Below, in pieces: positions 9,094-34,372 of a stretch of DNA of 64,000 nucleotides. The position numbers and the translations under genes are program-made. This DNA comes from Mucilaginibacter arboris (GTDB lineage: Bacteria; Bacteroidota; Bacteroidia; Sphingobacteriales; Sphingobacteriaceae): contig NZ_WPIK01000007.1 in the NCBI RefSeq assembly GCF_009754915.1, positions 124,001-188,000 on the forward strand, in the 5' to 3' direction. Position 1 is the first letter of the stretch, and every line of letters starts with the position of its first letter. The notes under the pieces are model-generated. The model saw nothing but the letters and a program-made list of their open reading frames with translations, did no database searches and was not told the DNA's origin.

Positions 9094-10149
9094 ATGATCT
9101 CTTTTTTTGAAGCTTCCCTTGCCCAACTTTCCATCCACCGCGTGGGCAATAAATTGCAGGATGAATTTTATGTTTTATCGGAAGCGCCCGTTCCGAAGTT
9201 GGACGAAACGCTGAACAAACTATTGATGCAGTACTTTTTAAGTCCGTATGAAAAGGTGAACGAACGCTATCGCCTGCATCATTCCAGCGGGGATTTAAAC
9301 CTGAACGAAGTTTATCATTTTGTATCTGCTATTTTTGAGCAGCCTGAAAACTTCCACCAAAACAGCGAGCAGTTGGCTAAATATTTATACGATGTTTCCA
9401 ATCACCCCAAAATCAAATCTGGTGAATTGTATGTGGCTTTGTTTAAAGATTTACAATTGGACGGCGAACTGCTGGATGCCATTGGCATTTTTAAATCGGA
9501 AACAAAAGAAACCTATTTAAAAGTTTACCCTGAGCAAAGCGGTTTTGGCCTGAGTTATGAGCAGGAAGCCATTAATATCAGCAAATTGGATAAAGGCTGT
9601 TTGATCTTCAATACCGAAAAGGAGCAAGGTTACCAGGTTGCCGTAATCGATCAAACCAACCGCAACACCGAAGCGGTTTACTGGAAAGATGATTTCCTGA
9701 AACTGAAAATCCGCAATGATAATTACAACCAGACGCAGCAGGTTTTGGGCGTTTACAAAAGTTTTGTAACGAATAAACTGGACTCAGAATTTGAAGTTTC
9801 TAAAGCAGATAAAATCGATCTGCTGAATAAATCCATCAATTACTTTAAAGAAAAAGAACAGTTTGACCTGGAAGAATTTTCCAAGGAAGTCATTGGCAAC
9901 GAACAAGGCATCGCTTCATTTTTAGATTATAAAAAGAGCTTTGAAGAAGAATTTGAAACGCCGGTCGATGATTCTTTTGCTATTTCTGATGCGGCCGTTA
10001 AAAAGCAATCGCGCGTTTACAAAAGCATTTTAAAGCTGGATAAGAATTTTCATGTTTATATTCACGGCCGTAAAGAACTGGTAGAAAAAGGTTTTGATGA
10101 TGATAAAGGCATGAACTTTTACAAGCTGTATTTTAAGGAGGAAGCGTAA
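9094..10149 (+). CDS. Nucleoid-associated protein, NdpA/YejK family
   Basis: The 351 residues match the 37-kDa nucleoid-associated protein family, whose members bind DNA but have a poorly defined role. Recognisable features are the N-terminal IHRVGNKLQDE, a central region with KSGELYVALFKDLQLDGELLDAIGIFKSETKETYL, and the late VYKSILKLDKNFHVYIHGRKELVEKGFD. It is cytoplasmic, with no signal or membrane segment. It stands alone. The ATG at 9094 is the first that gives the usual family N-terminus. Confidence 0.87.
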   Translation: MISFFEASLAQLSIHRVGNKLQDEFYVLSEAPVPKLDETLNKLLMQYFLSPYEKVNERYRLHHSSGDLNLNEVYHFVSAIFEQPENFHQNSEQLAKYLYDVSNHPKIKSGELYVALFKDLQLDGELLDAIGIFKSETKETYLKVYPEQSGFGLSYEQEAINISKLDKGCLIFNTEKEQGYQVAVIDQTNRNTEAVYWKDDFLKLKIRNDNYNQTQQVLGVYKSFVTNKLDSEFEVSKADKIDLLNKSINYFKEKEQFDLEEFSKEVIGNEQGIASFLDYKKSFEEEFETPVDDSFAISDAAVKKQSRVYKSILKLDKNFHVYIHGRKELVEKGFDDDKGMNFYKLYFKEEA

Positions 10150-10204: not shown

Positions 10205-11491
10205 TTAATGCTGTTTTATTTTAGCCGGATTTATAATTTCAACAGTTACGTTAGGCGGATAAGCAAAGTAATGCCATGCTGCTTCTGCTTTTGCCTGGTT
10301 AAAATGGCCGTTAAATACCACAAACCGGTATTTCAGCACATAATCATTTCCCGGGGTTAGTAGCCAGTCTTTATCTTTGGTTGGAGAAAAATTAGCGTAA
10401 ACATCACCACGGCCATTCATATCAGATTTCCATACTCTTAAAGGTTCCGGGAAATTGTAGTTGGTGGGGAATGACATCATCACTGCACCTGCATATTCCT
10501 GGTCGATCTGGCCTTGTACAATTACCCAGCGCGCTTTGCTGCCATCTGCTTCATCCCGTGTTTTCCCTTCAGAAGTTAGCATCATACTGTTTTTACCATC
10601 CCATTTTTCGGTGGCACGCCATCCGAGGCCGCCATAGCGATAAGCTAAAAGCTTAACTGCACTCTCTAAACAATTCAACTGTATGGTAATATCGGCAATA
10701 TAATAATCCGCAGTAGTTGCAGGCTGATAAATGCGTACAGACTGCAATTCGTTTAAAGCTACTTTTTCTTTTTCCGGGCCTTGCTTTTTAAACGCAATAT
10801 GTTGCTGCAAAACCTGAAAATCAGCATAAACAGCACCACTGGTTAACGAGGTGAAATTTGCAAAGCGCACAGTTCCCTGCTTTTCTTTCAGGTTTCAGAA
10901 ATCTACTGTATCACCTTCAAAATAAGTATGTGTCCAGGGGTCCCACAAACCAAAATGGTGGTAATGGTCGGGCGCACCTATCCGGGTTAACCTTTGTCCT
11001 TTAGGAGACCATAGCGGATGGATAAAGCCACTTCTTTTAAAAACAGTATCTACACCTGCCGGAGGATAAACGGTTTTGTAATTATATCGTAACAGGTTTT
11101 TATGATTTGCTGTAATGGTTACATAACCGCTGTCTTTTACTATTTGGATAGCTTCTTTTACTTCGGGCGTGCGGGCTTTTACCAGTTCATAGCGATGTTT
11201 TCCGGGATTAGCGTTTGCTTTTACTAAAAAAAATAAAAAGCGCCGGCCTTTATTTTCTATTTGAAAAGGGATAACGTTTCGTTTGTTACCAGCTATTTCA
11301 AACAAGTTAATCGCAGAATCAGGAATGGTGGTTATTTTATCCAGGTCAACACTTACAGGCACAGCAATATTTTCAGTTTTACCATCAAGGTTAACCATTA
11401 AAACAGCAATTTTTTGTGCCTCTGCCGGCAAAGTAATAAGCAGGACAAAAGCCATAAAAAAGAAGCTTTTAAACAACTTTATGTAATCCAT
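10205..11491 (-). pseudogene. PmoA-like (DUF6807) secreted protein gene interrupted by an in-frame TGA
   Basis: Two minus-strand ORFs (11491-10895 and 10870-10205) are in the same reading frame and are separated only by a TGA at 10895-10897. The first half has a signal peptide ending PAEAQ and the family motif RIGAPDHYHHFGLWDPWTHTYF followed by EGDTVDF. The next codon is TGA where related proteins continue ...DFWNL. The second half carries on with NLKEKQGTVRFANFTSLTSG and runs to a normal end. TGG to TGA is one base change, so this looks like a recent nonsense mutation or a sequencing error. The full protein would be 428 residues. The family is named after a methane-oxygenase annotation but is generally a secreted carbohydrate-locus protein. 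Confidence 0.85.
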
Positions 11492-11790: not shown

Positions 11791-12372
11791 ATGAACAGGA
11801 CCCGGTTTTTATCATTGCTCGGTTTATCGTCTTTTACGCTATTCAATATAAAAACAATGGCAGAAAATATAGTTAAACCTGAAACTCATTTTTTTAAAGA
11901 TGATGGCATTATCCCTAACAGCCAATATCCGCTGCTGCATTATCAAAAAGCTTTTACAGCAACCGGTCCGGCTGGGGCAAGCTGGCTGGAACAACATTTT
12001 GCCCAATATAAATGGACCAATTCCTGGCGCAACGGCGTTTATCCGTTTCATCATTACCACAGCACCTCGCACGAAGTTTTAGGCATTTACAACGGCTCAG
12101 CCTTGCTGCATTTAGGCGGAGAAAGAGGACAAAAAGTTAAGGTTGAAGCCGGAGATATTATCGTAATCCCGGCTGGAGTTGGCCATAAAAATTTAGGCAG
12201 CAGTACTGATTTTGGTGTGGTTGGCGCGTACCCGGATGGAAGAAGCTGGGATGTAATGAGAGGACAACCTGGCGAAAGGCCAAAAGCGGATGAACGGATT
12301 GCGGCCTTGCCGGTTCCTGATTTTGACCCGTTTTTGGGGAAAGCGGGTGGTTTGGTTGGGCTTTGGACGTAA
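11791..12372 (+). CDS. Cupin domain protein, YjlB-like
   Basis: A single-domain cupin of 193 residues. The metal-binding pattern is visible as HHYHSTSHEVLGIYNGSALL (cupin motif 1) and VEAGDIIVIPAGVGHKNLG (motif 2). The N-terminus (RTRFLSLLGLSSFTLFN) resembles a weak export signal. I use the ATG at 11791, where this signal begins; the longer frame opens at 11686 with sequence lacking family features. The substrate is unknown. Its TAA stop (12370-12372) shares its last base with the first degenerate CRISPR repeat, so cupin transcripts could run into the array. Confidence 0.85.
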   Translation: MNRTRFLSLLGLSSFTLFNIKTMAENIVKPETHFFKDDGIIPNSQYPLLHYQKAFTATGPAGASWLEQHFAQYKWTNSWRNGVYPFHHYHSTSHEVLGIYNGSALLHLGGERGQKVKVEAGDIIVIPAGVGHKNLGSSTDFGVVGAYPDGRSWDVMRGQPGERPKADERIAALPVPDFDPFLGKAGGLVGLWT

Positions 12373-12416: not shown

Positions 12417-15400
12417 AAAGGCTAAAATCCTATGCTGGCCATTATAGTTGTGATTTGCTTTCATTCTTTGAATTACTGATATTTAACCCAACCCGAAGTA
12501 AAACCGCTGGAAGAACTAAAATGTTGTGATTTGCTTTCATTCTTTGAATTACTGATATTTAACCCAACAATAAGGACGACGTAAAAAAATGGCAAATTGT
12601 TGTGATTTGCTTTCATTCTTTGAATTACTGATATTTAACCCAACGCAACTCAAAGCGAGCCTTACACTTATCGGGTTGTGATTTGCTTTCATTCTTTGAA
12701 TTACTGATATTTAACCCAACTTACCCTAATCCTGTTAGTTACCAATGGTAGTTGTGATTTGCTTTCATTCTTTGAATTACTGATATTTAACCCAACGATG
12801 AAGTAATAAGCGACGAACCGCAAGGGTTGTGATTTGCTTTCATTCTTTGAATTACTGATATTTAACCCAACAGAAATTGCTGCCGAAGAAAAGATTAAAT
12901 CGTTGTGATTTGCTTTCATTCTTTGAATTACTGATATTTAACCCAACAATTGATGAAGGCTGTAAACATGCGGTATTGTTGTGATTTGCTTTCATTCTTT
13001 GAATTACTGATATTTAACCCAACTTAATTATCCGCAGCAATATGTTTCCGATGGTTGTGATTTGCTTTCATTCTTTGAATTACTGATATTTAACCCAACG
13101 TTCAATTGGTACATCGAATCCGATAGCTTGTTGTGATTTGCTTTCATTCTTTGAATTACTGATATTTAACCCAACACCAACTGCAATAACCTCATTATTG
13201 CCATAGTTGTGATTTGCTTTCATTCTTTGAATTACTGATATTTAACCCAACTATATAACAAATGACATAGGTACTTATTTTGTTGTGATTTGCTTTCATT
13301 CTTTGAATTACTGATATTTAACCCAACGCAGCCAACATAGTTAACCAATCAAATAGCGTTGTGATTTGCTTTCATTCTTTGAATTACTGATATTTAACCC
13401 AACCTTTATTAGCAAAATCACCAAGTGTTCCTGGTTGTGATTTGCTTTCATTCTTTGAATTACTGATATTTAACCCAACTCAAAAAGATTTTAGTGCGCA
13501 AATTATACAGTTGTGATTTGCTTTCATTCTTTGAATTACTGATATTTAACCCAACTAGGGTACGCGTTACCATCGCAACCTATATGTTGTGATTTGCTTT
13601 CATTCTTTGAATTACTGATATTTAACCCAACTGCACACTTGCGAAACCAACCAGCGCAGGTGTTGTGATTTGCTTTCATTCTTTGAATTACTGATATTTA
13701 ACCCAACAAGTGTTTTTTCATTTCCATACACCAAAGCGTTGTGATTTGCTTTCATTCTTTGAATTACTGATATTTAACCCAACATTAGAAATTAAATCTT
13801 TATTGCAAGGTATGTTGTGATTTGCTTTCATTCTTTGAATTACTGATATTTAACCCAACCACTTCTATTGCATTTATGCCGTTGTTTACGTTGTGATTTG
13901 CTTTCATTCTTTGAATTACTGATATTTAACCCAACATATAATGAACAAGCAAAAAACGGTCGCTGGTTGTGATTTGCTTTCATTCTTTGAATTACTGATA
14001 TTTAACCCAACGTTGCCAGGCGTTTTGCCCCGGTAGATATTGTTGTGATTTGCTTTCATTCTTTGAATTACTGATATTTAACCCAACAAGTGGGCCAAAA
14101 TGGATTTAATAGACCGGGTTGTGATTTGCTTTCATTCTTTGAATTACTGATATTTAACCCAACCTAAACGATGTTTATACACCTACAGCAGACGTTGTGA
14201 TTTGCTTTCATTCTTTGAATTACTGATATTTAACCCAACTATTTTGGTTCCGGTTAATTATTCTTCTGTGTTGTGATTTGCTTTCATTCTTTGAATTACT
14301 GATATTTAACCCAACAACGATTACTGTACGGGCGATTTTGATACGGTTGTGATTTGCTTTCATTCTTTGAATTACTGATATTTAACCCAACAAGATTTAC
14401 ACGAATACCAGATAACGGGTAGTTGTGATTTGCTTTCATTCTTTGAATTACTGATATTTAACCCAACAATGCGTTGTTTATAAGCACGCCGCGTGGCGTT
14501 GTGATTTGCTTTCATTCTTTGAATTACTGATATTTAACCCAACCAAACTTGAAATCACATCCGCAGGACTTCCGTTGTGATTTGCTTTCATTCTTTGAAT
14601 TACTGATATTTAACCCAACTGCCGCTTATTGGCTGGCATCTGCTTGCAAGTTGTGATTTGCTTTCATTCTTTGAATTACTGATATTTAACCCAACTATTG
14701 CCAGGCGATGGCAAGCCATTTATTCGTTGTGATTTGCTTTCATTCTTTGAATTACTGATATTTAACCCAACTGCTGCCGGACGCTGCAATAAAAAGCAGT
14801 AGTTGTGATTTGCTTTCATTCTTTGAATTACTGATATTTAACCCAACCAATCAAAGGAAACTTAGCAACGTTTTTTGGTTGTGATTTGCTTTCATTCTTT
14901 GAATTACTGATATTTAACCCAACTTTCACATGGGCAACCCACCACATTCACGGTTGTGATTTGCTTTCATTCTTTGAATTACTGATATTTAACCCAACTT
15001 GAAGTTTCAAACCTGATTTCAGAAGCTGGTTGTGATTTGCTTTCATTCTTTGAATTACTGATATTTAACCCAACTCATAATTTTGCTATGTTGTATAGTG
15101 CTGGTTGTGATTTGCTTTCATTCTTTGAATTACTGATATTTAACCCAACGATATAACGTTTTGTACCGTCTTGTTTGGGTTGTGATTTGCTTTCATTCTT
15201 TGAATTACTGATATTTAACCCAACACGAACAGTTGCCAATGCTTACAGACTGGGGTTGTGATTTGCTTTCATTCTTTGAATTACTGATATTTAACCCAAC
15301 ATGTAGTTTTTTTATATAATACTCCAACTAATTGTGATTTGCTTTCATTCTTTGAATTACTGATATTTAACCCAACTAAATAAGATGAATCAACCCAGTA

Positions 15401-18400
15401 AGCATGTTGTGATTTGCTTTCATTCTTTGAATTACTGATATTTAACCCAACGGTATCAAACTTGTTAAGTGGGGTACAATAGTTGTGATTTGCTTTCATT
15501 CTTTGAATTACTGATATTTAACCCAACTGACCCTCGTTACTTTTAACCAGGGCTTTGGTTGTGATTTGCTTTCATTCTTTGAATTACTGATATTTAACCC
15601 AACAGATAAAAAAGCCGGCGAGATCAGCGCCGAGTTGTGATTTGCTTTCATTCTTTGAATTACTGATATTTAACCCAACCAACCTCAATTCCAAATGTTT
15701 ATTCCACTAGTTGTGATTTGCTTTCATTCTTTGAATTACTGATATTTAACCCAACGCTCCATATTATACTTCATTTTACTTTGTAGTTGTGATTTGCTTT
15801 CATTCTTTGAATTACTGATATTTAACCCAACTGGAAGACTACATGCAATTCCTGAGAAATAGTTGTGATTTGCTTTCATTCTTTGAATTACTGATATTTA
15901 ACCCAACCCAAAGCAGAATCTGATAAATCGCTATAATGTTGTGATTTGCTTTCATTCTTTGAATTACTGATATTTAACCCAACACTTCTGTTCATAATTG
16001 CATTATTAAATGTGTTGTGATTTGCTTTCATTCTTTGAATTACTGATATTTAACCCAACGTGATAAAATCGAAGGTATATTATCATAGTGTTGTGATTTG
16101 CTTTCATTCTTTGAATTACTGATATTTAACCCAACCCATGATGTGTAAGGTTGTTTAAGGTTATTGTTGTGATTTGCTTTCATTCTTTGAATTACTGATA
16201 TTTAACCCAACTGGTTGTTTTGATACCTCCGGCAGAACTTGGTTGTGATTTGCTTTCATTCTTTGAATTACTGATATTTAACCCAACAAAATTGCAAGAG
16301 TACCTCAACCAATCGGAGTTGTGATTTGCTTTCATTCTTTGAATTACTGATATTTAACCCAACCGCGGTTTTCAAAATCATCCGTTAACAACTGTTGTGA
16401 TTTGCTTTCATTCTTTGAATTACTGATATTTAACCCAACAAGTACCTATGTCATTTGATATGTAGGATAGTTGTGATTTGCTTTCATTCTTTGAATTACT
16501 GATATTTAACCCAACCCTGCTAATTCTCTTTATCATATTAAGTATGTTGTGATTTGCTTTCATTCTTTGAATTACTGATATTTAACCCAACTTTGTGGCC
16601 GGCAAACCCTTTGCAATTACTGTTGTGATTTGCTTTCATTCTTTGAATTACTGATATTTAACCCAACAATGTACCAAAACAGCGCGTTCCAATACGCGTT
16701 GTGATTTGCTTTCATTCTTTGAATTACTGATATTTAACCCAACACTGATCAGCACCAGGTAAAAGGCAACTTGTTGTGATTTGCTTTCATTCTTTGAATT
16801 ACTGATATTTAACCCAACATACACAAAATAAAAAATATGCTGGCCGTAGTTGTGATTTGCTTTCATTCTTTGAATTACTGATATTTAACCCAACACGCTG
16901 CACGCGAGAACCAAAGCACAAGTTGTTGTGATTTGCTTTCATTCTTTGAATTACTGATATTTAACCCAACGTCTGCATGTGTTGGTAAAAACTTCATCAA
17001 GTTGTGATTTGCTTTCATTCTTTGAATTACTGATATTTAACCCAACATATCCAAAAATATTTACCCTTTATCAAGTGTTGTGATTTGCTTTCATTCTTTG
17101 AATTACTGATATTTAACCCAACTGGATTGGTCGCGAGCTGTTTTGATTACCGTTGTGATTTGCTTTCATTCTTTGAATTACTGATATTTAACCCAACTTT
17201 ATGCTTGATCTGATACAACCATTGCTTGTTGTGATTTGCTTTCATTCTTTGAATTACTGATATTTAACCCAACATTAGAATTTACGCGAAAAGCGAAAGG
17301 CATGTTGTGATTTGCTTTCATTCTTTGAATTACTGATATTTAACCCAACGTCTTGTTTCAAAGCCCATTTAAAAAAGAAGTTGTGATTTGCTTTCATTCT
17401 TTGAATTACTGATATTTAACCCAACCATAGCGTTACCGGAAATGCGAGCATCATCGTTGTGATTTGCTTTCATTCTTTGAATTACTGATATTTAACCCAA
17501 CCATGGACGGAAAAGGGGTTTTGAATGCGGAGTTGTGATTTGCTTTCATTCTTTGAATTACTGATATTTAACCCAACTTCTGTATTTTTCATAAGCTTCT
17601 TTGCTTTGTTGTGATTTGCTTTCATTCTTTGAATTACTGATATTTAACCCAACGATAAAAAATACCATGTTTTACACGATTTGTTGTGATTTGCTTTCAT
17701 TCTTTGAATTACTGATATTTAACCCAACTGTTCAAAAAGATAATCTATTTCAGGTTAAGTTGTGATTTGCTTTCATTCTTTGAATTACTGATATTTAACC
17801 CAACATTATGGTCTTTCAGAACCCTGATCCTTTGTTGTGATTTGCTTTCATTCTTTGAATTACTGATATTTAACCCAACTAAGGCAACCAATAAATAAAA
17901 GGCGATAATGTTGTGATTTGCTTTCATTCTTTGAATTACTGATATTTAACCCAACATTTGAGCTGCTGCTCATCATCATCAGTATGTTGTGATTTGCTTT
18001 CATTCTTTGAATTACTGATATTTAACCCAACTTTCCCATAACATGGGGTTATCATACTGCTGTTGTGATTTGCTTTCATTCTTTGAATTACTGATATTTA
18101 ACCCAACCATCAGGCACGAGCTTAATACTTGAATCTTGTTGTGATTTGCTTTCATTCTTTGAATTACTGATATTTAACCCAACTTTTTCATTTTCTAAGT
18201 CTTTGAATTTCGGTTGTGATTTGCTTTCATTCTTTGAATTACTGATATTTAACCCAACAAAAACCCAATTTTCGCCAACGCGGTATTTGTTGTGATTTGC
18301 TTTCATTCTTTGAATTACTGATATTTAACCCAACGTACTTGAAAAAATAACCCTGAAGTTTGTAGTTGTGATTTGCTTTCATTCTTTGAATTACTGATAT

Positions 18401-21400
18401 TTAACCCAACATGAAAATGAAAGTCAATGTAGGCATTATTGTTGTGATTTGCTTTCATTCTTTGAATTACTGATATTTAACCCAACTTGTTTTAGAATTT
18501 AAAGAGCCATTAACTGTTGTGATTTGCTTTCATTCTTTGAATTACTGATATTTAACCCAACAGAAGAAGACATTAGCTGGATGCAGGAACTGTTGTGATT
18601 TGCTTTCATTCTTTGAATTACTGATATTTAACCCAACCTTCCATTTTGTTTCGGTTAACGGCTATCTGTTGTGATTTGCTTTCATTCTTTGAATTACTGA
18701 TATTTAACCCAACTACCTGTGTGTAAGCCTTTTTACTTGTGTGGTTGTGATTTGCTTTCATTCTTTGAATTACTGATATTTAACCCAACTATGGTTTGGG
18801 CATAAAAAAACCTTAACTTGTTGTGATTTGCTTTCATTCTTTGAATTACTGATATTTAACCCAACTACATAGTATTGCCAAAGCCTTATCGGCGTGTTGT
18901 GATTTGCTTTCATTCTTTGAATTACTGATATTTAACCCAACTAACGTAAATAACAAATGAAATCTAGCTGCGTTGTGATTTGCTTTCATTCTTTGAATTA
19001 CTGATATTTAACCCAACTTACTTCGCAGCGGTTAAAGCTTTTCTTCCGTTGTGATTTGCTTTCATTCTTTGAATTACTGATATTTAACCCAACTTCTTTT
19101 GAAGAGTTTCCATACAAATATTGGTTGTGATTTGCTTTCATTCTTTGAATTACTGATATTTAACCCAACAAACAGCACCGATGGGCGCATTGCCTAATGG
19201 TTGTGATTTGCTTTCATTCTTTGAATTACTGATATTTAACCCAACAAAAATCAACAGAAGAACTGCTGGAACGGGTTGTGATTTGCTTTCATTCTTTGAA
19301 TTACTGATATTTAACCCAACGCCGCTCAGGTCTGTAGTTTCCCTGCTGCTGTTGTGATTTGCTTTCATTCTTTGAATTACTGATATTTAACCCAACCCGG
19401 ACAAAAAACTATTGCCGTCATCTGCAGTTGTGATTTGCTTTCATTCTTTGAATTACTGATATTTAACCCAACCCCGAGCAACTTCCACCCTCCGAGCAGT
19501 ATGTTGTGATTTGCTTTCATTCTTTGAATTACTGATATTTAACCCAACATAAGTATTAAATGCAATCAATTGATCTTTGTTGTGATTTGCTTTCATTCTT
19601 TGAATTACTGATATTTAACCCAACAACGGCGGCGGGTTCAGACAACTGGCAGCAGTTGTGATTTGCTTTCATTCTTTGAATTACTGATATTTAACCCAAC
19701 TAATGGAATTAAAAATATCTCAAATTCAATGTTGTGATTTGCTTTCATTCTTTGAATTACTGATATTTAACCCAACTAAACTGGTGCAGCATGCCCATAA
19801 TTAAATGTTGTGATTTGCTTTCATTCTTTGAATTACTGATATTTAACCCAACAATCAATAGCTTAAAAATTGGCGACGAAGTGTTGTGATTTGCTTTCAT
19901 TCTTTGAATTACTGATATTTAACCCAACAAATTACACAACAAAATTAAACGGAATTAAGTTGTGATTTGCTTTCATTCTTTGAATTACTGATATTTAACC
20001 CAACCAATCCCTTTAAACTTATGTTCCTTATCATGTTGTGATTTGCTTTCATTCTTTGAATTACTGATATTTAACCCAACTAAGTGTAATGCGTGTGATT
20101 CTGGTATTGTGTTGTGATTTGCTTTCATTCTTTGAATTACTGATATTTAACCCAACGCTTAAAAAAGTTATCCTATCAATTCCGCGTTGTGATTTGCTTT
20201 CATTCTTTGAATTACTGATATTTAACCCAACAAAACGGTGTGGAATACGACCTGGCAGAGCGTTGTGATTTGCTTTCATTCTTTGAATTACTGATATTTA
20301 ACCCAACGTAATAAACAGCGGCTGGTACGCCAAATTGTTGTGATTTGCTTTCATTCTTTGAATTACTGATATTTAACCCAACGAGCCATTGCCCGATCCA
20401 GATGTTTGTATTGTTGTGATTTGCTTTCATTCTTTGAATTACTGATATTTAACCCAACTCATCCGCCCGCTCCATCTGATAGTATTCGGTTGTGATTTGC
20501 TTTCATTCTTTGAATTACTGATATTTAACCCAACAACGCGTTGTTTATAAGTACTCCGCGTGGTGTTGTGATTTGCTTTCATTCTTTGAATTACTGATAT
20601 TTAACCCAACCTTTACACCTACTATCCAACTTCCGTCCGGTTGTGATTTGCTTTCATTCTTTGAATTACTGATATTTAACCCAACTAAAAAGTTATTTAA
20701 ATTATCGTTGTCTGTGTTGTGATTTGCTTTCATTCTTTGAATTACTGATATTTAACCCAACAAGCACAGATTATTAATCTTTTTGTGTCGGGTTGTGATT
20801 TGCTTTCATTCTTTGAATTACTGATATTTAACCCAACTAATTGCTGTTTAATACCTAATTGCTGTTTGTTGTGATTTGCTTTCATTCTTTGAATTACTGA
20901 TATTTAACCCAACGTTTGTCATTTCCACCAACATATTTAGTCAGTTGTGATTTGCTTTCATTCTTTGAATTACTGATATTTAACCCAACCCGCAAATTTG
21001 GCAAGTATCATCTATATATGTTGTGATTTGCTTTCATTCTTTGAATTACTGATATTTAACCCAACTTACCCTGTAAGTTGGGCATCGGATTTTTAGTTGT
21101 GATTTGCTTTCATTCTTTGAATTACTGATATTTAACCCAACGCACGCTATGCCAACGAGTTAAACAGTATTGTTGTGATTTGCTTTCATTCTTTGAATTA
21201 CTGATATTTAACCCAACCAATTTGCGAAGCAACAGCAGCAATAACATGTTGTGATTTGCTTTCATTCTTTGAATTACTGATATTTAACCCAACTTATGAT
21301 GCTCAACTACCCATGTTGGTGTAGTTGTGATTTGCTTTCATTCTTTGAATTACTGATATTTAACCCAACATGCCGAAAAATATATAATTGGGCTAAAAGG

Positions 21401-21596
21401 TTGTGATTTGCTTTCATTCTTTGAATTACTGATATTTAACCCAACTTTGAGCATTTATAGCCTTCACAGATTCAAGTTGTGATTTGCTTTCATTCTTTGA
21501 ATTACTGATATTTAACCCAACAGATATTAATTATCAATAGCATTTCCATTGTTGTGATTTGCTTTCATTCTTTGAATTACTGATATTTAACCCAAC
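12372..21596 (+). CRISPR. Type II-C CRISPR array, 122 repeats and 121 spacers
   Basis: The repeat is 46 bp, beginning GTTGTGATTTGCTTTC and ending TATTTAACCCAAC. I counted repeat by repeat: one degenerate 45-bp copy (12372-12416), then 121 full copies from 12447, the last ending at 21596. Of 121 spacers, 105 are 30 nt and 16 are 29 nt; the sum equals the 9225-bp span exactly. Full repeats look identical except the copy at 15331, which starts with A instead of G. The plus strand is the crRNA strand because the tracrRNA anti-repeat (28801-28816) is complementary to the 5' end of the plus-strand repeat. The degenerate copy marks the older end, so new spacers probably enter next to cas2. No leader promoter precedes the first repeat; repeat-internal starts or cupin read-through are needed. 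Confidence 0.98.
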
Positions 21597-21857
21597 CTAT
21601 CAGCTTATAAGGAGTTAAATATCAGTAGTTTAATCAAAAAATCAGAAAATAAAAAACTCGGTTGCTTTAGCTTCCGGGGTTTTTATTTTTGTTGTTTTGT
21701 TTTTCTAATGGAAAGGGGTAGCTACTCTTTACTGCTTCTTTTACCTTATAAAATCATTAAACTTTCTTTTTTATCTGTTCTATATTTAAAAATATAAGTG
21801 CAGATTTTTTATTGCTAAAAGAAGTATGGCTGAGCTGGTAATACGAAATGGACCACC
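21597..21857. promoter_or_regulatory. Cas-proximal flank of the array (candidate adaptation leader)
   Basis: This 261-bp AT-rich stretch separates the last repeat from the cas2 stop codon. TTAAATATCAGTA at 21615-21627 is the exact reverse complement of TACTGATATTTAA in the last repeat (21578-21590), so a 13-bp stem with a 24-nt loop can form across the array boundary. It also holds a terminator-like hairpin (21652-21684) and a facing pair of dispersed half-sites (about 21731-21829). No gene is present. Confidence 0.5.
21652..21684. terminator. Bidirectional terminator between array and cas2
   Basis: AAAAACTCGG pairs, with one wobble and a bulge, with CCGGGGTTTTT 12 bases later, giving a GC stem flanked by A and T runs. 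It lies between the plus-strand array and the convergent cas operon and could stop transcription from both. Confidence 0.55.
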
Positions 21858-22187
21858 TTAAAATAGTTCTAATTGTTGTGGCGTGTTTGGCAGGGCTTTT
21901 TCTTCTTTCCCATAAAACAGTTCCATCATCCCGAACTGCTTGTCGGTTATCGTGATAATGCCTACATGCCCTTTGGCAGGCAATGCTTTTTTTATCCGCT
22001 TAATATGTACGTCGGCATTTTCGCGGCTACTGCAATGGCGCAGGTAAATCGAAAACTGGAACATGGCAAAGCCATCTTTCATAATGTCCTTACGAAACTT
22101 ACTGTAAATCTGCCTTTCCTTTTTAGTTTCGGTAGGCAGGTCGAACAATACTAATATCCACAAGATGCGGTATTCATTTAAACGCAT
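21858..22187 (-). CDS. cas2: CRISPR-associated endoribonuclease Cas2
   Basis: Cas2 is the dimeric scaffold of the Cas1-Cas2 integrase that inserts new spacers. The 109 residues open with the ferredoxin-like strand RILWILVLFDLPTETKKERQ, containing the conserved Asp, and continue with FRKDIMKDGFAMFQFSIYLR, as in type II Cas2 proteins. It begins 3 bases after the cas1 stop, so the two are cotranscribed. It is the cas gene nearest the array. Confidence 0.96.
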   Translation of the reverse strand: MRLNEYRILWILVLFDLPTETKKERQIYSKFRKDIMKDGFAMFQFSIYLRHCSSRENADVHIKRIKKALPAKGHVGIITITDKQFGMMELFYGKEEKALPNTPQQLELF

Positions 22188-22190
22188 TCA

Positions 22191-23216
22191 TTAAAAAGGT
22201 AAATCTATATCATCAATTGCTGTTTTATAACCTGTTTCCGCTTCGGCAGCTTTGCTGAAGTCACCCTCGGTAAAGGCTTTATAATTTCGTTTAGCTTCAA
22301 AGTTTCTGATAAAGGGGTAGGCAATCTTCCTGGCCGTCCCTTCATAACACTTGGCAAGCGAAGCCGTAGTGTTTTGCAGGCCAACCATTAAAGGGCTGCG
22401 GCCTTTTTCAAATTCCACGTCAACCGTTGCAATCCCAAGCAATTGTGTTTTAATGGAAGTGCCCAGCTCCAAAAAGTTCTCGCCATTATCAATGATCTTT
22501 AAAACGATCCGGTCAACATAAGGGCGGTAAGGCTCCATAATATCATCGGCCAGGCAATAGGCATTGTATTTGTTGCGGTGATGGATGCCAAGGGTAGGGA
22601 GCAGGCCGGAGCAAACCAGTCCCCTTGCTACAATAGCCCTTAAAATAGCATAACCATAATTTAAAAGGTTGTTGGGCGGATCTCCTTCGCGCCCGCGAAA
22701 GAATTCTATTTTCTTCGGAAACACATTCTTCCAGTAATAAGCTGCTGCCCGGCCTTCGTAATTATCCGGATCGCCTGATTTTACTGATTTTGCCCAGTGC
22801 AGCATATTCTCGTACGCGATACCGCGATCTGCCAATACCGCAGCCTGGTTTAGTATTTTAGCCTGCATAGTTTGCTGCCACAATTGCTTTTTTAAAGGTT
22901 GGGAAGCATCTATCTGATAACGGAAACGCTCGCTTTGAGTATCGTGCCCGTCAATCGGCAGCATCATTCCGGTTGGATGATGCGTATGGTTGCAGGTAAT
23001 GATGGCTGCATTGTTTTCCAGCAATGCAGCCATACAACCATGGGTAATGGTAATTTGCTGATGGTCTAATACCACAATCCCAACATCTTCAACCGGCACT
23101 GTTTTTTTAGATTCCTTTTCGCCTAAAACTTTTAAATGCGGCAGGTCTATTTGTAACTGGCTTTCTTTTAGGCTGAGGTAGGCCGGGTTGCTGAAATGGA
23201 GGGTGCGTTTGATCAT
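22191..23216 (-). CDS. cas1: CRISPR-associated endonuclease/integrase Cas1 (type II)
   Basis: Cas1 is the catalytic subunit of the spacer integrase. The 341-residue protein starts MIKRTLHFSNPAYLS and has the N-terminal beta domain with VEDVGIVVLDHQQITI. The helical catalytic domain carries NLLNYGYAILRAIVARGLVCSG followed by LPTLGIHHRNKYNAYCLADDIMEPYRPYVD, supplying the conserved Glu/His/Asp metal ligands. Length and motifs are those of type II-C. It lies 126 bp downstream of cas9 on the same strand, with a degenerate dispersed half-site in the gap. Confidence 0.97.
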   Translation of the reverse strand: MIKRTLHFSNPAYLSLKESQLQIDLPHLKVLGEKESKKTVPVEDVGIVVLDHQQITITHGCMAALLENNAAIITCNHTHHPTGMMLPIDGHDTQSERFRYQIDASQPLKKQLWQQTMQAKILNQAAVLADRGIAYENMLHWAKSVKSGDPDNYEGRAAAYYWKNVFPKKIEFFRGREGDPPNNLLNYGYAILRAIVARGLVCSGLLPTLGIHHRNKYNAYCLADDIMEPYRPYVDRIVLKIIDNGENFLELGTSIKTQLLGIATVDVEFEKGRSPLMVGLQNTTASLAKCYEGTARKIAYPFIRNFEAKRNYKAFTEGDFSKAAEAETGYKTAIDDIDLPF

Positions 23217-23342: not shown

Positions 23343-26300
23343 TTAAATTTGAGTATTAAAAACAGGTTTAATATTTCCTAAACGATCAATAGAAAGTTTT
23401 ATACAAAACTCTTTAATCATTATATCATCAACTGATTTTTCTGTTTTGTTTAAAGCAGAAAACTCTACTTTGTTTACAATTGATGTTGCAATATCATTTC
23501 GTATAAAAAAGCATTGATAAGAGGTTGAACTTGCCATTTTATAAACTCTTTTTACATGCTCTTTATCAAGATTGCTAAAGTTGATGTTTGAAATATGTTC
23601 TCTTTCTTCTTTGGTCGGTACATAAACAAGATCATTCGGAGATAGAAACATTAAAAGTTTTTGTTCATCTACGTTACTTTCTGGCACAGATAATAGTTTT
23701 TGCTTTTGGCGCTCGATTACAATATTTAAAGGAATGGTTTCAAAACTTCGTTTGCCGTTTTCATCTTGGTAAATTGCAAAGAAAAGGTTTGTGCCCTTTG
23801 CAGCCTCAACAAATTTTGTTTTCTTATTGCCTGATTGACCTACTGCAAACTTATTTCCCTTAGTTTCATAAGTTCGTACTTTTAAAATGGGTTGATGAAA
23901 TTTTCCATTGTTTAACACAACAATGTTTTTGTTCATTTCCTCAATTCCTTCAGGCGAAAAAGCAATTTCAGGATTGTCTTTACTGTTTTCGAGGTGTTTC
24001 AATAGAATTTTTTGAATACCAGTATCAGTAATACTTTCAATTCTTGCTTTATTAAAAGTAATGTCAAGGCTTACTCTGGATGCAACATTATCATTTTCCC
24101 AATAGTAAATGCCTACTTTGGAAATATCTTGCCCATATAGCTGATTGTTATTTTCTTTAAAGTGCTTTACTAATTTCTTCTTGTCCAAGCCTTCTGCAAT
24201 TAGTTTTTTTATATATTTTCTTAAAGGCTTATCAATAATATTTTCAGGTGATTCAAAGGTAGTGGATAATGAAACTGGTTTTGTTTTTCTTAATGAAACC
24301 GATCCTGATACTGTATCTTTGTGCAATGGTTTTCTGATTGCCCAACTTTCCCCTTTTTGCTGTTTTAACTTATCTTTTTTTCCGCCCTTTATTATAATGT
24401 CATGCTGATTGACAGTTTTATTAATGATCCGCAAATTTTGTTTAAAACTTACCACAACTTGTTCTAATTTACTTTTTGCTTCGGGGATAAATCCTACCCA
24501 CGGTTGTTTAAATACCCATTTGTAATTTTCAGAAGAACCGTCATTGTATTTTTTATCGCAAAGCGTTTTTCTTAAATTATAACGACCTTGTTGCTTTTGC
24601 TCTATTGATTTATTTTTATCTAAAGCGTTTTGGTTATTTAAGAAGTTGATGTGGCTACGGGTAGCACAAGCTATTACTAATGCATCCATAGCATGGTGGC
24701 GGTGGTCTATCCTTTTCTTTTGGAACCCTCTTTGTAATTCTAATGGAACAGCCGGTAAGTATTTTTGGTATTTTTCATTGTAAACTGTAAAGTGAGTTGT
24801 ATTCGTTATTTGGTTCAGTCTTTCAAAGCGTGGTAAGATCAATTCATTCCAAATAGCATCCATTCCCCAGTCCTGTTTCAGTTTAGTCGTAATTTGTCCA
24901 TTGCTTGCCAATATATTCTTAGAGTTTGCGCCGTCATCATCTTTGTCTGTTCTTACAATATTTGATAAGACCTGCATAATAAACTTGCTGATGTAACGGG
25001 TATCATTCATTTGCCGTTCAATCATTTTTTCAGGAATATCTAATGCTAACAGTTTATTTTTCTTTGTTCGGCTTTTATCGTAGTACTGTTTTACGAAAGA
25101 TGTGTAGGCGTCCTCAGTAAAAACCATAACAGTTTTACCCATACCTACTTCTACAATTTGCCCATAATGATTTTGGATAAATTGTAAAGCAGTTTGACCG
25201 CCTTTTAAAGTATTTACAGCTGCTTCACATATTACTTTATTACTAAAGCTATCATCAAAATACCGGCTTTGAGGAATAATATGTTCTATTTCATAGGCTG
25301 GTGTAAATAGTTTGTTTAATGGGATAATTTCACCTGTATAAGGCGAACGATATTTTTGTTCAAGCCAAAGCTTGTATCGCTGCAACTCAGAACTTGTAGG
25401 TTGTGCTTGTGTGCTGATTTTTTCAATATCCTCAGGTATTTCGATAGCTGCATTTAATACAAAATCCTCATATATCTTCAAAATATCCTGCTGAGTAGGT
25501 GAATAAGGCCGTACATTCTCAACAGAATTATCGTTTAGCATTTCGGCTAATAAAGCTTTAATTCGGAGATTGGTATTTTCGTTTTTAGTTACTTGTTCTG
25601 TGATTCGCTTTCGTTCAACAGCGGGATTTTTCATATCACGGCCTAACTCAATATGAATTTCATCAAAGAAGCCTTCAACTCCATCTCCATAATACTGCCA
25701 AATATCTTTTACAGTTCTAAGTGATTCGGTAATTACCTGTTCTACTATTGGGTTTTTCAAAGAATGTTGTCTAAAAGATTTCAAATATTCTTCTAAGTCG
25801 CTAACAGTTTTCCATTGTCCTAAATCACTTTTTTCCGAATGATGATCATACACTACATATTTAGCCAACCATTCTGGTAATCCCTGAAAATGATTGGTAT
25901 CTGTTAAATTAATAGCTTTATCCCTGACCCTATTTTGTATCGTTTCATCTACTTCCGCATTAATAATTTTTGTAATTCTATCTTTTGTTTTTTCGTATAT
26001 ATTTTCTTCATTCCAATATTTACCCATACGCATTAAGGGTAATAATTTTTTTATTGCCTTTGCTGAGTAAGAACCATAATTACTTGGAAACGGAGGAAAT
26101 TTCTTGAATGCATCATAAAAACTAACTAAATCAAGGCCGTTTTTATGTGCAAAAGATTTCAATGCTTTTTCGTATTCAATTTTATCAGTTACAGAATAGA
26201 TAATATGCCATAATTCTTCTTCCGTTTTTTTAGTTAAAAATCCTTGTGGTACGTCATTTACCTTTTCCAATCTGCTAACTATCATAGAATGGGTTTCATT

Positions 26301-27842
26301 GCAAGGATATTTTTTATCCTCTACATAGTTCCAGCGGTAATTGCTTCCCTTTAATTTAAAATATTTCAATAACGACTGTTGGTCTATTTCTTTTCGTTCA
26401 TTTAAAAAATCGAATAGTGCAGTGAAATCGTCAATAGTCTGCAAATGATTTTCGGTTTCATTAGCATCATTTCCTCTGTTAATAATACGCAAGTTGCTTA
26501 TCCATTGCCATAAGCGAAACTCTTGATACAATGGATGTGATTTTGAAATACACTTTATAGGTTCTGTTTTTTTTACACCTTCGAGTATAAAAGTTCTTGA
26601 CTCTAAGGGGCAATTACTGATAGAGCTTTTTTGACTGCGTAATGGTCTTTGATAGTACAAAATATCTTCTACAATAAGGTGCAGAAAGTCCTTATTTAAT
26701 AAGGTAGATTGATGATGTAAATTGTGCGGATATAACTCTTCTACGCATTGTTGATACAGATTTCTATCTTGCAACGAATTATGCAATTCAATTTGCTTTT
26801 TCAGAATTTGTTCTAACTCGCTCTTGTAAAATTTTCTTTCAATAGTGCGTATAAGTTTACCCTTTATTTTTTGATTAGGCTTTTGTAAAAGCGCATCATA
26901 AACATATTCGCCTACACTTTTATCAGATTTTTCAATGTCATTTTCAGTCTTCTTTTTCAGTAATTGCCAATCATCTTCTTTTGGTAAACGGAAGCTTCTT
27001 TTTTCTTTTCCTTCTTTGTCTTTTTTAATACTGCCATCTTCGTTTAGGTCAGTAGTCACAATAAAATCACGAATCTTATCTTTCCAATCAAACAATGGTA
27101 ATTTGCTTGCACGACGGTAAATCCAGCCATTTTCTAAAATAATATTATACCAGATTTCATTCTTGCCCTTTTGTGGTTCATCTGCGGTTACGTCAACTAT
27201 TTTTAGTGAGTAAAAATCTTCCAGTTTATTCGGCTTATTGTCAGTTTCTTCACCACGTAATTGATAATAGCCACGCTTTTGGTTAAAATGCAAAAGCAAC
27301 CAGGCTAATTCCTCTTTTTCTATCTTTTTGGTTAATGCTTTTTTTCTCAAATAGTAAATTGTCCAATCGTAAGGTATCTTTGCATCTTCACCTTTCTTGT
27401 TTTTTCTGTTCATTAACTCAGGTTGGTGTTTTAGAAAATCTGTAAGCATTTCTTCAAAAGATTCTTTGAAGATGAAATTGCCGTTATCATCGTAAACTAG
27501 TTTAGTTTCTGTTTCTGGTAAAAATTTACCTAAACGGGCATTAAAGTCAATTTTATTAGCATAATGCTGAGGAAGAAATTCAAGTGTATTTAATATTCTG
27601 TGTAGCCTTTCTCTGCGTAATAAATGACGCTCCCTTAATCTTCTCGTACCTCTTAAACGGGTACGTTCAGCCGTCTGTGAAATAGAATTTCCTCTTTCAA
27701 ATTCTCCTAAAATATCTTGAGACATGGGAATAATCCTACTTCCCAAGCCAAGAATTTTCCCTTGTTTATTTTCAAAATCTTGTTTTATCAAAGCCCAGCC
27801 GATCGAGTTAGTCCCAAGGTCAAGTCCTAAAATTTTTTTCAT
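23343..27842 (-). CDS. cas9: Type II-C CRISPR RNA-guided endonuclease Cas9
   Basis: Cas9 cuts DNA matching the spacer, guided by crRNA and tracrRNA. The 1499 residues contain RuvC-I LGLDLGTNSIGW with catalytic D8, the arginine-rich bridge helix (TRLRGTRRLRERHLLRRERL), RuvC-II IHIELGRD with E732, the HNH motif YEIEHIIPQSRYFDDSFSNK with H854, and RuvC-III DHRHHAMDALVIACAT with H1050 and D1053, so both nuclease sites look intact. The C-terminal ~400 residues form the wedge/PAM-interacting part. No csn2 or cas4 accompanies it, which together with the cas9-cas1-cas2 order gives type II-C. A -7 box lies at 27993-28000. The ~150-nt leader contains a repeat-like sequence (27900-27915). Confidence 0.98.
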   Translation of the reverse strand: MKKILGLDLGTNSIGWALIKQDFENKQGKILGLGSRIIPMSQDILGEFERGNSISQTAERTRLRGTRRLRERHLLRRERLHRILNTLEFLPQHYANKIDFNARLGKFLPETETKLVYDDNGNFIFKESFEEMLTDFLKHQPELMNRKNKKGEDAKIPYDWTIYYLRKKALTKKIEKEELAWLLLHFNQKRGYYQLRGEETDNKPNKLEDFYSLKIVDVTADEPQKGKNEIWYNIILENGWIYRRASKLPLFDWKDKIRDFIVTTDLNEDGSIKKDKEGKEKRSFRLPKEDDWQLLKKKTENDIEKSDKSVGEYVYDALLQKPNQKIKGKLIRTIERKFYKSELEQILKKQIELHNSLQDRNLYQQCVEELYPHNLHHQSTLLNKDFLHLIVEDILYYQRPLRSQKSSISNCPLESRTFILEGVKKTEPIKCISKSHPLYQEFRLWQWISNLRIINRGNDANETENHLQTIDDFTALFDFLNERKEIDQQSLLKYFKLKGSNYRWNYVEDKKYPCNETHSMIVSRLEKVNDVPQGFLTKKTEEELWHIIYSVTDKIEYEKALKSFAHKNGLDLVSFYDAFKKFPPFPSNYGSYSAKAIKKLLPLMRMGKYWNEENIYEKTKDRITKIINAEVDETIQNRVRDKAINLTDTNHFQGLPEWLAKYVVYDHHSEKSDLGQWKTVSDLEEYLKSFRQHSLKNPIVEQVITESLRTVKDIWQYYGDGVEGFFDEIHIELGRDMKNPAVERKRITEQVTKNENTNLRIKALLAEMLNDNSVENVRPYSPTQQDILKIYEDFVLNAAIEIPEDIEKISTQAQPTSSELQRYKLWLEQKYRSPYTGEIIPLNKLFTPAYEIEHIIPQSRYFDDSFSNKVICEAAVNTLKGGQTALQFIQNHYGQIVEVGMGKTVMVFTEDAYTSFVKQYYDKSRTKKNKLLALDIPEKMIERQMNDTRYISKFIMQVLSNIVRTDKDDDGANSKNILASNGQITTKLKQDWGMDAIWNELILPRFERLNQITNTTHFTVYNEKYQKYLPAVPLELQRGFQKKRIDHRHHAMDALVIACATRSHINFLNNQNALDKNKSIEQKQQGRYNLRKTLCDKKYNDGSSENYKWVFKQPWVGFIPEAKSKLEQVVVSFKQNLRIINKTVNQHDIIIKGGKKDKLKQQKGESWAIRKPLHKDTVSGSVSLRKTKPVSLSTTFESPENIIDKPLRKYIKKLIAEGLDKKKLVKHFKENNNQLYGQDISKVGIYYWENDNVASRVSLDITFNKARIESITDTGIQKILLKHLENSKDNPEIAFSPEGIEEMNKNIVVLNNGKFHQPILKVRTYETKGNKFAVGQSGNKKTKFVEAAKGTNLFFAIYQDENGKRSFETIPLNIVIERQKQKLLSVPESNVDEQKLLMFLSPNDLVYVPTKEEREHISNINFSNLDKEHVKRVYKMASSTSYQCFFIRNDIATSIVNKVEFSALNKTEKSVDDIMIKEFCIKLSIDRLGNIKPVFNTQI

Positions 27843-27899
27843 AGAAAGGTATCTAAAGGTTTTGTTTTAAAAATAAGAAAAGATGGGGAATTAAAAAGG

Positions 27900-27945
27900 G
27901 AAAGCAAATCACAGCCTACAGTACTGTATATAATGTTCCAAACAT
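27900..27945 (-). promoter_or_regulatory. crRNA-like sequence in the cas9 5' leader
   Basis: On the minus strand, 27915-27900 reads GCTGTGATTTGCTTTC, which matches 15 of the first 16 bases of the CRISPR repeat and could pair with 14 consecutive bases of the tracrRNA anti-repeat. The bases before it (27945-27916) occupy the spacer position. They contain the palindrome TACAGTACTGTA (27918-27929) and the stem AATGTT/AACATT. The last ten pseudo-spacer bases, AGTACTGTAG, recur at 28010-28019 beside the cas9 promoter. Function is inferred only. Confidence 0.5.
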
Positions 27946-28000: not shown

Positions 28001-28047
28001 GTTAATATTAGTACTGTAGAAAAATTTGTTTTCTAATTATTTAAACT

Positions 28048-28055
28048 ATATTTGT
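28048..28055 (+). promoter_or_regulatory. Candidate NYN gene promoter (TTTG ... TATATTTG)
   Basis: TATATTTG at 28048-28055 matches the -7 consensus exactly and TTTG at 28026-28029 lies 18 bases upstream, close to the usual -33 spacing. It diverges from the cas9 promoter. The predicted leader contains the stem CCAAAGAT/ATCTATGG (28092-28110), then the anti-repeat that covers the NYN start codon. Confidence 0.55.
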
Positions 28056-28139
28056 ATTAAACACGAAACGCCCCATTACTGGAGCGTCTATCCAAAGATA
28101 CTATCTATGGAGCTGTTCTTGTAATGCAAAGATAATATA

Positions 28140-28165
28140 TTCAAAGAATGAAAGCAAATCACAAC
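28140..28165 (+). promoter_or_regulatory. 26-nt perfect CRISPR anti-repeat covering the NYN start codon
   Basis: This segment (TTCAAAGAATGAAAGC followed by AAATCACAAC) is the exact reverse complement of the first 26 bases of the CRISPR repeat. It spans positions -8 to +18 of the NYN gene, including the ATG at 28148-28150. The mRNA would pair with the repeat part of any crRNA over more bases than the tracrRNA does (16). The following bases, AAGAATTATTGCG (28168-28180), match 11 of 13 in the tracrRNA nexus region AAGGATTATTCCG. Confidence 0.75.
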
Positions 28166-28771
28166 GAAAGAATTATTGCGTATATAGATGGTTTTAATCT
28201 TTATTTTGGTATGAAACAAAGCGGCAATGATACGCTTTGGCTAAATCCGAAAAAATTGGTATTATCTTTACTTAAGCCTAATCAAGAATTAGTACACTTA
28301 AATTATTTTACTTCTAGGATCCGCAATAATCCAGATAAGGAGCGAAGGCAAAATACGTATATAGAAGCGATAGAAACATTAAGTGATTGTAAGATAGTTT
28401 ATGGGCACTACCAATCTCATATCGAAGAATGTAGAAAATGTGGTCATACCTATCCTTACTCAAATGAAAAAATGACCGATGTTAATATTGCAGTTTCGAT
28501 GATGGAAGATGCCTTTAATGATAAATATGATGCGGCATTTTTAATTACAGGCGATAGTGATTTGGTCCCACCTATTAAATCTATCCAATCTTTGTTTCCG
28601 TCAAAACGCGTTTTTGTCGGATTTCCTCCCAATAGGTTCAATGTTAGTGTTAAAAATGTTTCAAAAGGGAATATGATCATTGGCAGGAAAAAATTAAAAG
28701 ATGCTCAATTTGAAGATGAAGTGCAAAAACCGAATGGATTTATTTTAAAAAGGCCTAATGGATGGAGGTAA
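28148..28771 (+). CDS. NYN domain (PIN-like) ribonuclease-family protein between cas9 and tracrRNA
   Basis: NYN domains belong to the PIN-like nuclease superfamily and are predicted metal-dependent RNases. The acidic active-site pattern is complete: IAYIDGFNLYF (D14), EKMTDVNIAVSMMEDAF (D111) and FLITGDSDLVPPI (D136, D138). The protein has 207 residues, no signal peptide, and a CRKC pair near residue 95. Its first six residues, MKANHN, are encoded by the anti-repeat at 28140-28165; the conserved domain begins just after, at ERIIAYIDGF. The only ATG near the domain start is the one inside the anti-repeat. The gene lies on the plus strand, divergent from cas9 and upstream of the tracrRNA. I know of no established role for NYN proteins in type II CRISPR systems. 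Confidence 0.88.
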   Translation: MKANHNERIIAYIDGFNLYFGMKQSGNDTLWLNPKKLVLSLLKPNQELVHLNYFTSRIRNNPDKERRQNTYIEAIETLSDCKIVYGHYQSHIEECRKCGHTYPYSNEKMTDVNIAVSMMEDAFNDKYDAAFLITGDSDLVPPIKSIQSLFPSKRVFVGFPPNRFNVSVKNVSKGNMIIGRKKLKDAQFEDEVQKPNGFILKRPNGWR

Positions 28772-28800: not shown

Positions 28801-28869
28801 TGAAAGCAAATCACAATAAGGATTATTCCGTTGTGAAAACATTTAAGGCGGGGCAACTCGCCTTTTTTT
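28801..28869 (+). ncRNA. tracrRNA of the type II-C CRISPR-Cas9 system
   Basis: The RNA opens with the anti-repeat TGAAAGCAAATCACAA (28801-28816), complementary to bases 2-17 of the plus-strand repeat. It continues with a nexus-like hairpin GGATTATTCC (28820-28829) and a linker, and ends in a Rho-independent terminator: AAGGCG, an 8-nt loop, CGCCTT, then seven T (28845-28869). This order of anti-repeat, short nexus and terminal hairpin is that of compact II-C tracrRNAs. Its strand fixes the crRNA strand of the array. Confidence 0.92.
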
Positions 28870-28877
28870 ATTTTCCC

Positions 28878-30898: not shown

Positions 30899-31309
30899 AT
30901 GTCAGCAATAATTAAATCCATTACTGCGGAACAAACCTGGCCAATCAGACAAAAAGTAATGTATCCTGAATTTGAAATTGATAAAGTAAAACTTGCCGAC
31001 GATGCACAAGGCCGCCATTTCGGCTTGTTTGTTGCAGATGAATTAACCGTAGTGGTTTCACTTTTTGTTAAAGATGAAGCTTTACAATTCCGAAAATTAG
31101 CAACGCTGACAGCACAACAAGGAAAAGGTTACGGCAGGCAAATGATGGAATTTATTCTTGACCTGGCATCCGCAGAAAACCTCGAAACTATTTGGTGCAA
31201 TGCAAGATTAACCGCATCAAAATTTTATAAAACTTTTGGTTTGGAGGTTTCCGGAGAAAGCTGGCAGCAGAACGGCCATGAATTTGTGATGATGAAAAAG
31301 CAGCTTTAA
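30899..31309 (+). CDS. GNAT family N-acetyltransferase
   Basis: A 136-residue single-domain acetyltransferase. The acetyl-CoA binding motif A is FRKLATLTAQQGKGYGRQMMEFIL with the Q-x-x-G-x-G signature, and motif B follows in ETIWCNARLTASKFYKTFGLE. It is cytoplasmic and stands alone. The acceptor could be a small amine or a protein terminus and cannot be predicted. Confidence 0.9.
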   Translation: MSAIIKSITAEQTWPIRQKVMYPEFEIDKVKLADDAQGRHFGLFVADELTVVVSLFVKDEALQFRKLATLTAQQGKGYGRQMMEFILDLASAENLETIWCNARLTASKFYKTFGLEVSGESWQQNGHEFVMMKKQL

Positions 31310-31388
31310 CAGTTTTATGTTGATAAAAGAAGCATGGCCTCACCTTAAAAGGGCGCTAAACATTTTCCCCGCTTTTTAGTTGGATTAC

Positions 31389-32550: not shown

Positions 32551-32639
32551 AAAAACAAACTTTCGGCTGATAAAAAGAGTATCATGCTTCTTTTATCGGA
32601 TAAAAATCTAAACTTTAAATTTCAATTCAACATAAAACA

Positions 32640-33539: not shown

Positions 33540-33616
33540 GATTTTAAGCCCAGTTTTTTGCCCGGGGCTGAACTTGTTCCAGTTCTTCATCCAAAAAAAA
33601 ATCGATCATCATTTTT

Positions 33617-33662
33617 AGCCGGTAAAAGAAGCATTCAATTTTGGATGCTTCTTTTACCGGCT
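33617..33662. terminator. 18-bp perfect hairpin built from dispersed half-sites; bidirectional terminator
   Basis: AGCCGGTAAAAGAAGCAT and ATGCTTCTTTTACCGGCT face each other across a 10-nt loop, flanked by T runs on both strands. It lies between two convergent genes. A second hairpin follows at about 33670-33698 (CCCTCTCC/GGAGAGGG), a motif repeated at 41890-41914. Confidence 0.7.
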
Positions 33663-34210: not shown

Positions 34211-34372
34211 AATGTTCGTTTAATTGGAGAGTTAACATGCAGTAGCTCTTATGGTTTGCTTTTTAACATAATCTACTAAATATGCTAATTTGTTATTATT
34301 TTTAGCTGATAAAAGAAGCATCAACCATTGCTCTGGAAACCAAACCAGAACGTTAACTATAGACCGAAAAAA

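Follow-up and report, generated by a model that had tools for sequence, protein, structure and literature searches.

HEC-09 is catalogued in PADLOC as an Hma-embedded candidate, an NYN nuclease; its one mention in the accessible literature is a correlation with phage susceptibility, and our search of that literature returned no experimental function for it. Its closest described counterparts come from several fields. In AbiF, an RNase is held by the noncoding RNA AbiFr (PMC12737573), and in the module described here an RNase gene likewise stands beside a small structured RNA (sRNA), among defence-type neighbours that include an Abi_2 protein adjoining one of the sRNA copies. AbiF has a HEPN-type relation to Cas13, whereas the fold here is NYN and a divergent promoter usually serves the sRNA alone. 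In CreTA and CrePA (PMC9458426, PMC12737573), as here, a putative toxin lies in a CRISPR locus with repeat-derived sequence; those modules belong to type I, carry a crRNA-like guide cassette and have their toxin promoter repressed by the Cas effector, whereas the present locus is of type II and carries an anti-repeat or promoter fragment. In type II loci, tracrRNA is recognised as an anti-repeat followed by a nexus and a terminator. Furthermore, in II-C arrays of Flavobacterium and other Bacteroidota, the TTG of the repeat, 33-35 bp upstream of the spacers, has been proposed as a -33 promoter element (PMC8092290, PMC10309648). Finally, in type III toxin-antitoxin systems the RNA antitoxin lies upstream in the same transcript and inhibits the RNase protein by binding it. 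A literature search on NYN proteins together with tracrRNA, type III toxin-antitoxin systems or RNA motifs returned nothing relevant.

The window, a stretch of 64,000 nt of Mucilaginibacter arboris DNA, holds a CRISPR-Cas locus of type II-C layout. An array of 121 repeats of 46 nt (12447..21641, plus strand) is followed on the minus strand by cas2 (21858..22187, PF09827), cas1 (22191..23216, PF01867) and cas9 (23343..27842, RuvC_III and HNH_4). The tracrRNA (28801..28872, plus strand) consists of the anti-repeat AR3 (28801-28816), a nexus and a terminator, and is nearly identical to that of a sister species; its polarity and a degenerate repeat at 12372 indicate that crRNAs are probably read from the plus strand. 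Between cas9 and tracrRNA lies a plus-strand gene for an NYN RNase-like protein of 207 aa (28148..28771), together with two further plus-strand anti-repeats: AR1 (27899..27914), which is partial and without a nexus, and AR2 (28139..28165), which is perfect over 27 nt, its minus strand reading as nt 1-27 of the repeat. The whole genome was searched with nt 1-16 of the repeat, allowing up to one mismatch, a pattern that strongly degenerate repeats would escape. The 121 forward copies are those of the array, and the only reverse copies are AR1, AR2 and AR3, all within 920 bases, between cas9 and tracrRNA with its AR3 included. None of these three copies outside the array forms a repeat-guide-repeat unit, so the genome yields, within the reach of this pattern, no crRNA-like guide from ectopic repeats; on that ground the module, for which the first-pass annotation proposed the part of a type II counterpart of CreTA, is not a member of CreTA.

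The protein matches the Pfam NYN family (E 8.6e-12) and, over nearly its full length, the PADLOC HEC-09 profile (E 5.4e-90, HEC-09 residues 7-207). Its predicted structure is confident (pLDDT 93.8) and its best structural matches (VIA-align) are NYN proteins, namely 2qip (Z 18.6) and the NYN domain of MARF1 (Z 16.6); ToxN is not among the matches listed, an absence that does not exclude a ToxN-like fold. The acidic residues D14, D111, D136 and D138 are invariant. The protein is a candidate defence RNase of NYN/PIN-like fold, and the modelled likeness to known NYN RNases agrees with the earlier naming of the gene. Homologues were obtained by alignment-based search of genome contigs, a single-protein query having matched nothing. 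The relatives of HEC-09 are spread over many phyla, plasmids and viral contigs, and one lies in a mycobacterial prophage near an immunity repressor.

AR2 spans positions -9 to +18 of the NYN ORF. The perfect anti-repeat over the NYN start had been reported as 26 nt long, and it is in fact one nucleotide longer; when the window without its array was simulated 60 times by a first-order Markov model, matches to either strand of the repeat reached 10-13 nt at the longest. The predicted duplex with the repeat reaches -41.4 kcal/mol for AR2, -26.0 for AR1 and -24.3 for the tracrRNA anti-repeat, the best value among 300 random 67-mers of the window being -24.7 kcal/mol. An in-frame stop at 28133 makes 28148 the sole ATG, GTG or TTG start ahead of the NYN core. 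A promoter predicted from sequence only (TTTG, 18 nt, TATATTTG; 28025..28054, plus strand, with TATATTTG at 28047-28054) would start the NYN mRNA near 28061, upstream of AR2, which would thus lie within the mRNA, as the first-pass annotation had assumed. The same annotation likened the bases that follow AR2 to the tracrRNA nexus, a likeness that dissolves on translation: AAGAATTATTGCG encodes the conserved NYN strand (E)RIIAYIDG / RIIAYIDGFN, and the same strand is encoded in homologues without an anti-repeat, for example by GAAAGAGTAGTTGCGTACATAGATGG.

The minus strand opposite the predicted leader of NYN encodes an antisense sRNA (28061..28124) with two hairpins, the second of which is terminator-like. 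A model built from 36 copies found upstream of NYN homologues describes an RNA of ~65 nt, and its matches adjoin HEC-09 genes at 75 of 80 loci; of the five homologues without a match, two start within ~110 bases of a contig end. The sRNA is present once in the genome of the window and twice at several other loci. In six loci, no Rfam family was matched at gathering score, and relaxed searches in the window and in locus L073 gave only sub-threshold matches. In the sources searched, the sRNA is a previously undescribed partner of HEC-09, and the copy in the window sits in a CRISPR locus.

Of the 16 sRNA pairs, 14 have changes on both sides. Non-Watson-Crick cells bear on the strand: 28 of them become G-U when the sRNA strand is read, but only 6 when the NYN strand is. 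Moreover, among 25 loci from Bacteroidota, Chlorobiota and viral contigs, 21 have TAnnTTTG on the sRNA strand at a constant position (background 3%), and in 14 of those 21 a TTG lies 19-21 nt further upstream. Read opposite NYN, a U-rich tract follows the second hairpin, the tract being weak in the window (UUUCGUGUUU). Judged by these signals, the sRNA is encoded opposite to NYN in most loci, the window included; in L064, L075 and L078 it shares the strand of NYN. This arrangement, with the sRNA opposite NYN and under its own predicted promoter, differs from the type III toxin-antitoxin layout. The G-U count, the promoters, the terminators and the existence of inverted and downstream copies led us to reject a reading of the sRNA as a 5'UTR element of NYN. 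A hammerhead ribozyme seems unlikely, its Rfam match being weak (15.5 bits, E 1.6) and its core not evident; a match of the sRNA model in genome G402 (locus L135, 24.9 bits), in which the second hairpin sequence is absent, was taken as chance.

The sRNA was detected in 34 of 395 genomes of the phylum. Among 29 sRNA loci that were fetched, 19 have an NYN relative nearby, in some cases a short remnant only (L197, L200), and because the other 10 have none within ~1.5 kb, the sRNA may have other partners. Genes near the sRNA loci encode Abi_2, AbiEii, HsdM, Eco57I and PIN proteins. The retention of the sRNA where the RNase has decayed or is missing would fit an antitoxin-like role. The loci with a decayed NYN or none nearby (L197, L200, L210-L218), whose neighbours belong to restriction, Abi and toxin-antitoxin systems, come mostly from one genus (g236, family f84). 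At another locus (L115, 10663-11044), four tandem sRNA copies ~100 nt apart lie downstream of NYN, and reverse-strand TTGACA and TAATAT boxes suggest a promoter of its own for each.

The predicted promoter of the sRNA in the window joins the conserved -7 element, here TATCTTTG (28127..28134, minus strand), to a -33 element TTTG (28155..28158, minus strand) that lies 20 nt upstream inside AR2, where it corresponds to positions 8-11 of the repeat. The divergent sRNA and this element inside AR2 had escaped the first-pass annotation. Within the repeat, TTTG stands at 8-11 and GATATTTA at 32-39, again 20 nt apart; GATATTTA or GATATTTG occupies that place in 11 of 13 other repeats of the same kind, and GATATTTA deviates from TAnnTTTG. 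In the array of the window, the TTG is located 35 bp upstream of the spacer, the same repeat position as in the II-C promoters proposed in the literature. Since AR2 keeps the register of the repeat promoter and a promoter role has been proposed for the repeat TTG, AR2 most likely contributes the -33 part of the promoter of the sRNA; the proposed elements would drive the array, whereas here the TTG appears to drive an RNA gene outside it. In homologues, the -33 TTG is present without any repeat. AR2 thus extends over the start codon of NYN as well as over the upstream part of the predicted divergent promoter, which gives two possible ways of wiring the module to the array.

The sister species (L041) offers an empty site, in which cas9, 44 bp and tracrRNA lead up to the chloride-channel gene also present in the window, and NYN is absent. 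As AR1 occupies the position of the sister's tracrRNA anti-repeat and the two tracrRNAs are nearly identical, the module was in all likelihood inserted at the anti-repeat. NYN was found in none of 15 related cas9 loci examined. In L050, an NYN gene is flanked by a II-C cas9 of another kind (~25% identical) and by a tracrRNA of the same type as that in the window, and the two NYN proteins form a clade with support 100/98; rows L130 and L072 of the tree were misread in frame, so that their long branches are meaningless, and the clade is independent of both. The L050 gene has no anti-repeat at its start, an outcome that the first-pass annotation had itself named as one that would refute its model.

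Built on what is seen in these sequences, namely the module, the sRNA family, the empty site and AR2 itself, the explanation that we consider probable is the capture of a small, mobile HEC-09 RNase-sRNA module of defence type by a II-C locus, with AR2 as a repeat-derived promoter half. An NYN-fold RNase with its own sRNA would have been inserted between cas9 and tracrRNA, at the tracrRNA anti-repeat. The conserved promoter elements suggest that transcription of the sRNA leads away from NYN and that a fragment of the CRISPR repeat, in register with the module's own -7, makes up the -33 half of the sRNA's promoter, the junction TTTG, 20 nt, TATCTTTG mirroring the TTTG, 20 nt, GATATTTA of the repeat. 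The fragment also contributes the ATG of NYN, whose start codon thereby lies within a perfect anti-repeat; as an anti-repeat on the NYN mRNA, AR2 may be incidental or useful beside its promoter role. With less certainty, NYN could be a growth-arresting or abortive-infection RNase restrained by the sRNA, which would bind the protein or act antisense to the leader of the NYN mRNA; AR2 could tie the module to the CRISPR locus through an array-type sRNA promoter, and pre-crRNA could possibly block NYN translation through AR2. The identity over 27 nt goes far beyond what a -33 element needs and implies, in addition, that the event was recent or that pairing is under selection. For HEC-09, a widespread candidate defence gene, a mechanism thereby becomes testable, an RNase with an RNA partner, on the basis of a conserved, structured and separately promoted sRNA at nearly all of its sampled copies in many phyla. 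In the window, a piece of the repeat sits at the exact point that could set the expression of both sRNA and RNase, and if it does set both, type II CRISPR and the RNase module would become co-dependent.

Three other accounts of AR2 deserve consideration. The first-pass annotation had read it as a captured or duplicated tracrRNA, and AR2 and AR3 do have 16 nt in common. A second, degenerate tracrRNA copy is nevertheless very improbable, and mostly refuted, for AR2 runs ~10 nt further along the repeat than AR3, ends with the C of the repeat where AR3 has T, and has no nexus, terminator or adjacent promoter, all that it shares with a tracrRNA being an anti-repeat beside cas9. Somewhat more credible, but still unlikely, is a neutral scar, left when the array or tracrRNA region recombined with an incoming module and kept only for its ATG and TTG. 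AR2 occurs in one genome only, three anti-repeats cluster at the insertion, AR1 resembles the left copy of a duplicated anti-repeat, and in L050 two additional anti-repeat-like stretches, at 9591 and 9701, lie towards cas9; a scar, on the other hand, accounts poorly for a perfect AR2 next to a degenerate AR1 and for the exact register of the -33 and -7 elements.

A little above the scar, though doubtful, we place the model of the first-pass annotation, direct control by crRNA or pre-crRNA, which would pair with AR2 and so block the NYN mRNA or have it cut, perhaps with the help of RNase III, NYN being released on loss of the array or of Cas9. The uninterrupted 27-bp pairing across the start codon, stronger in energy than that with tracrRNA, the 121 repeats available in the array and the predicted NYN promoter upstream of AR2 speak for it, as does the fact that the first 25-26 nt of the repeat are common to many related II-C repeats. 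Yet the sister NYN in L050, also II-C, and the homologues outside CRISPR loci do without the element, the bases of AR2 already have a likely promoter role, and tracrRNA and Cas9 normally keep crRNAs bound. The capture of the RNase-sRNA module can be extended in the same direction: the array would control an abortive-infection RNase via the captured repeat fragment, which drives the antitoxin sRNA while pre-crRNA silences the RNase mRNA, so that array loss unleashes the RNase. We hold this extension to be speculative and on balance unlikely.

Some minor observations concern the neighbourhood. In L050, two unlike tracrRNA-like genes and one extra anti-repeat surround NYN (9591-9660, 9701-9716, 11229-11300). 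The cas9 of the sister species is split over two matches that differ in frame, has a TAG in its interior (L041, 12727-14001) and may be broken. In the window, a possible -7 element of cas9 (TATATTTG, minus strand, 28000-27993), if used, would give a cas9 mRNA leader holding the repeat-like complement of AR1, with which the tracrRNA anti-repeat could pair over ~14 nt. A 3.4-kb Escherichia coli plasmid carries, upstream of its HEC-09 NYN gene, another hairpin-rich region with no match to the sRNA model (L186, 280-420), and a distant Cas1 relative (27% identity) is encoded ~9 kb from the HEC-09 gene of L126 (18875-19783). Lastly, intergenic inverted repeats of the window with the core AAAAGAAGCAT (31309-31336, 32583-32607, 33608-33662, 34295-34330) appear to belong to a small dispersed repeat.
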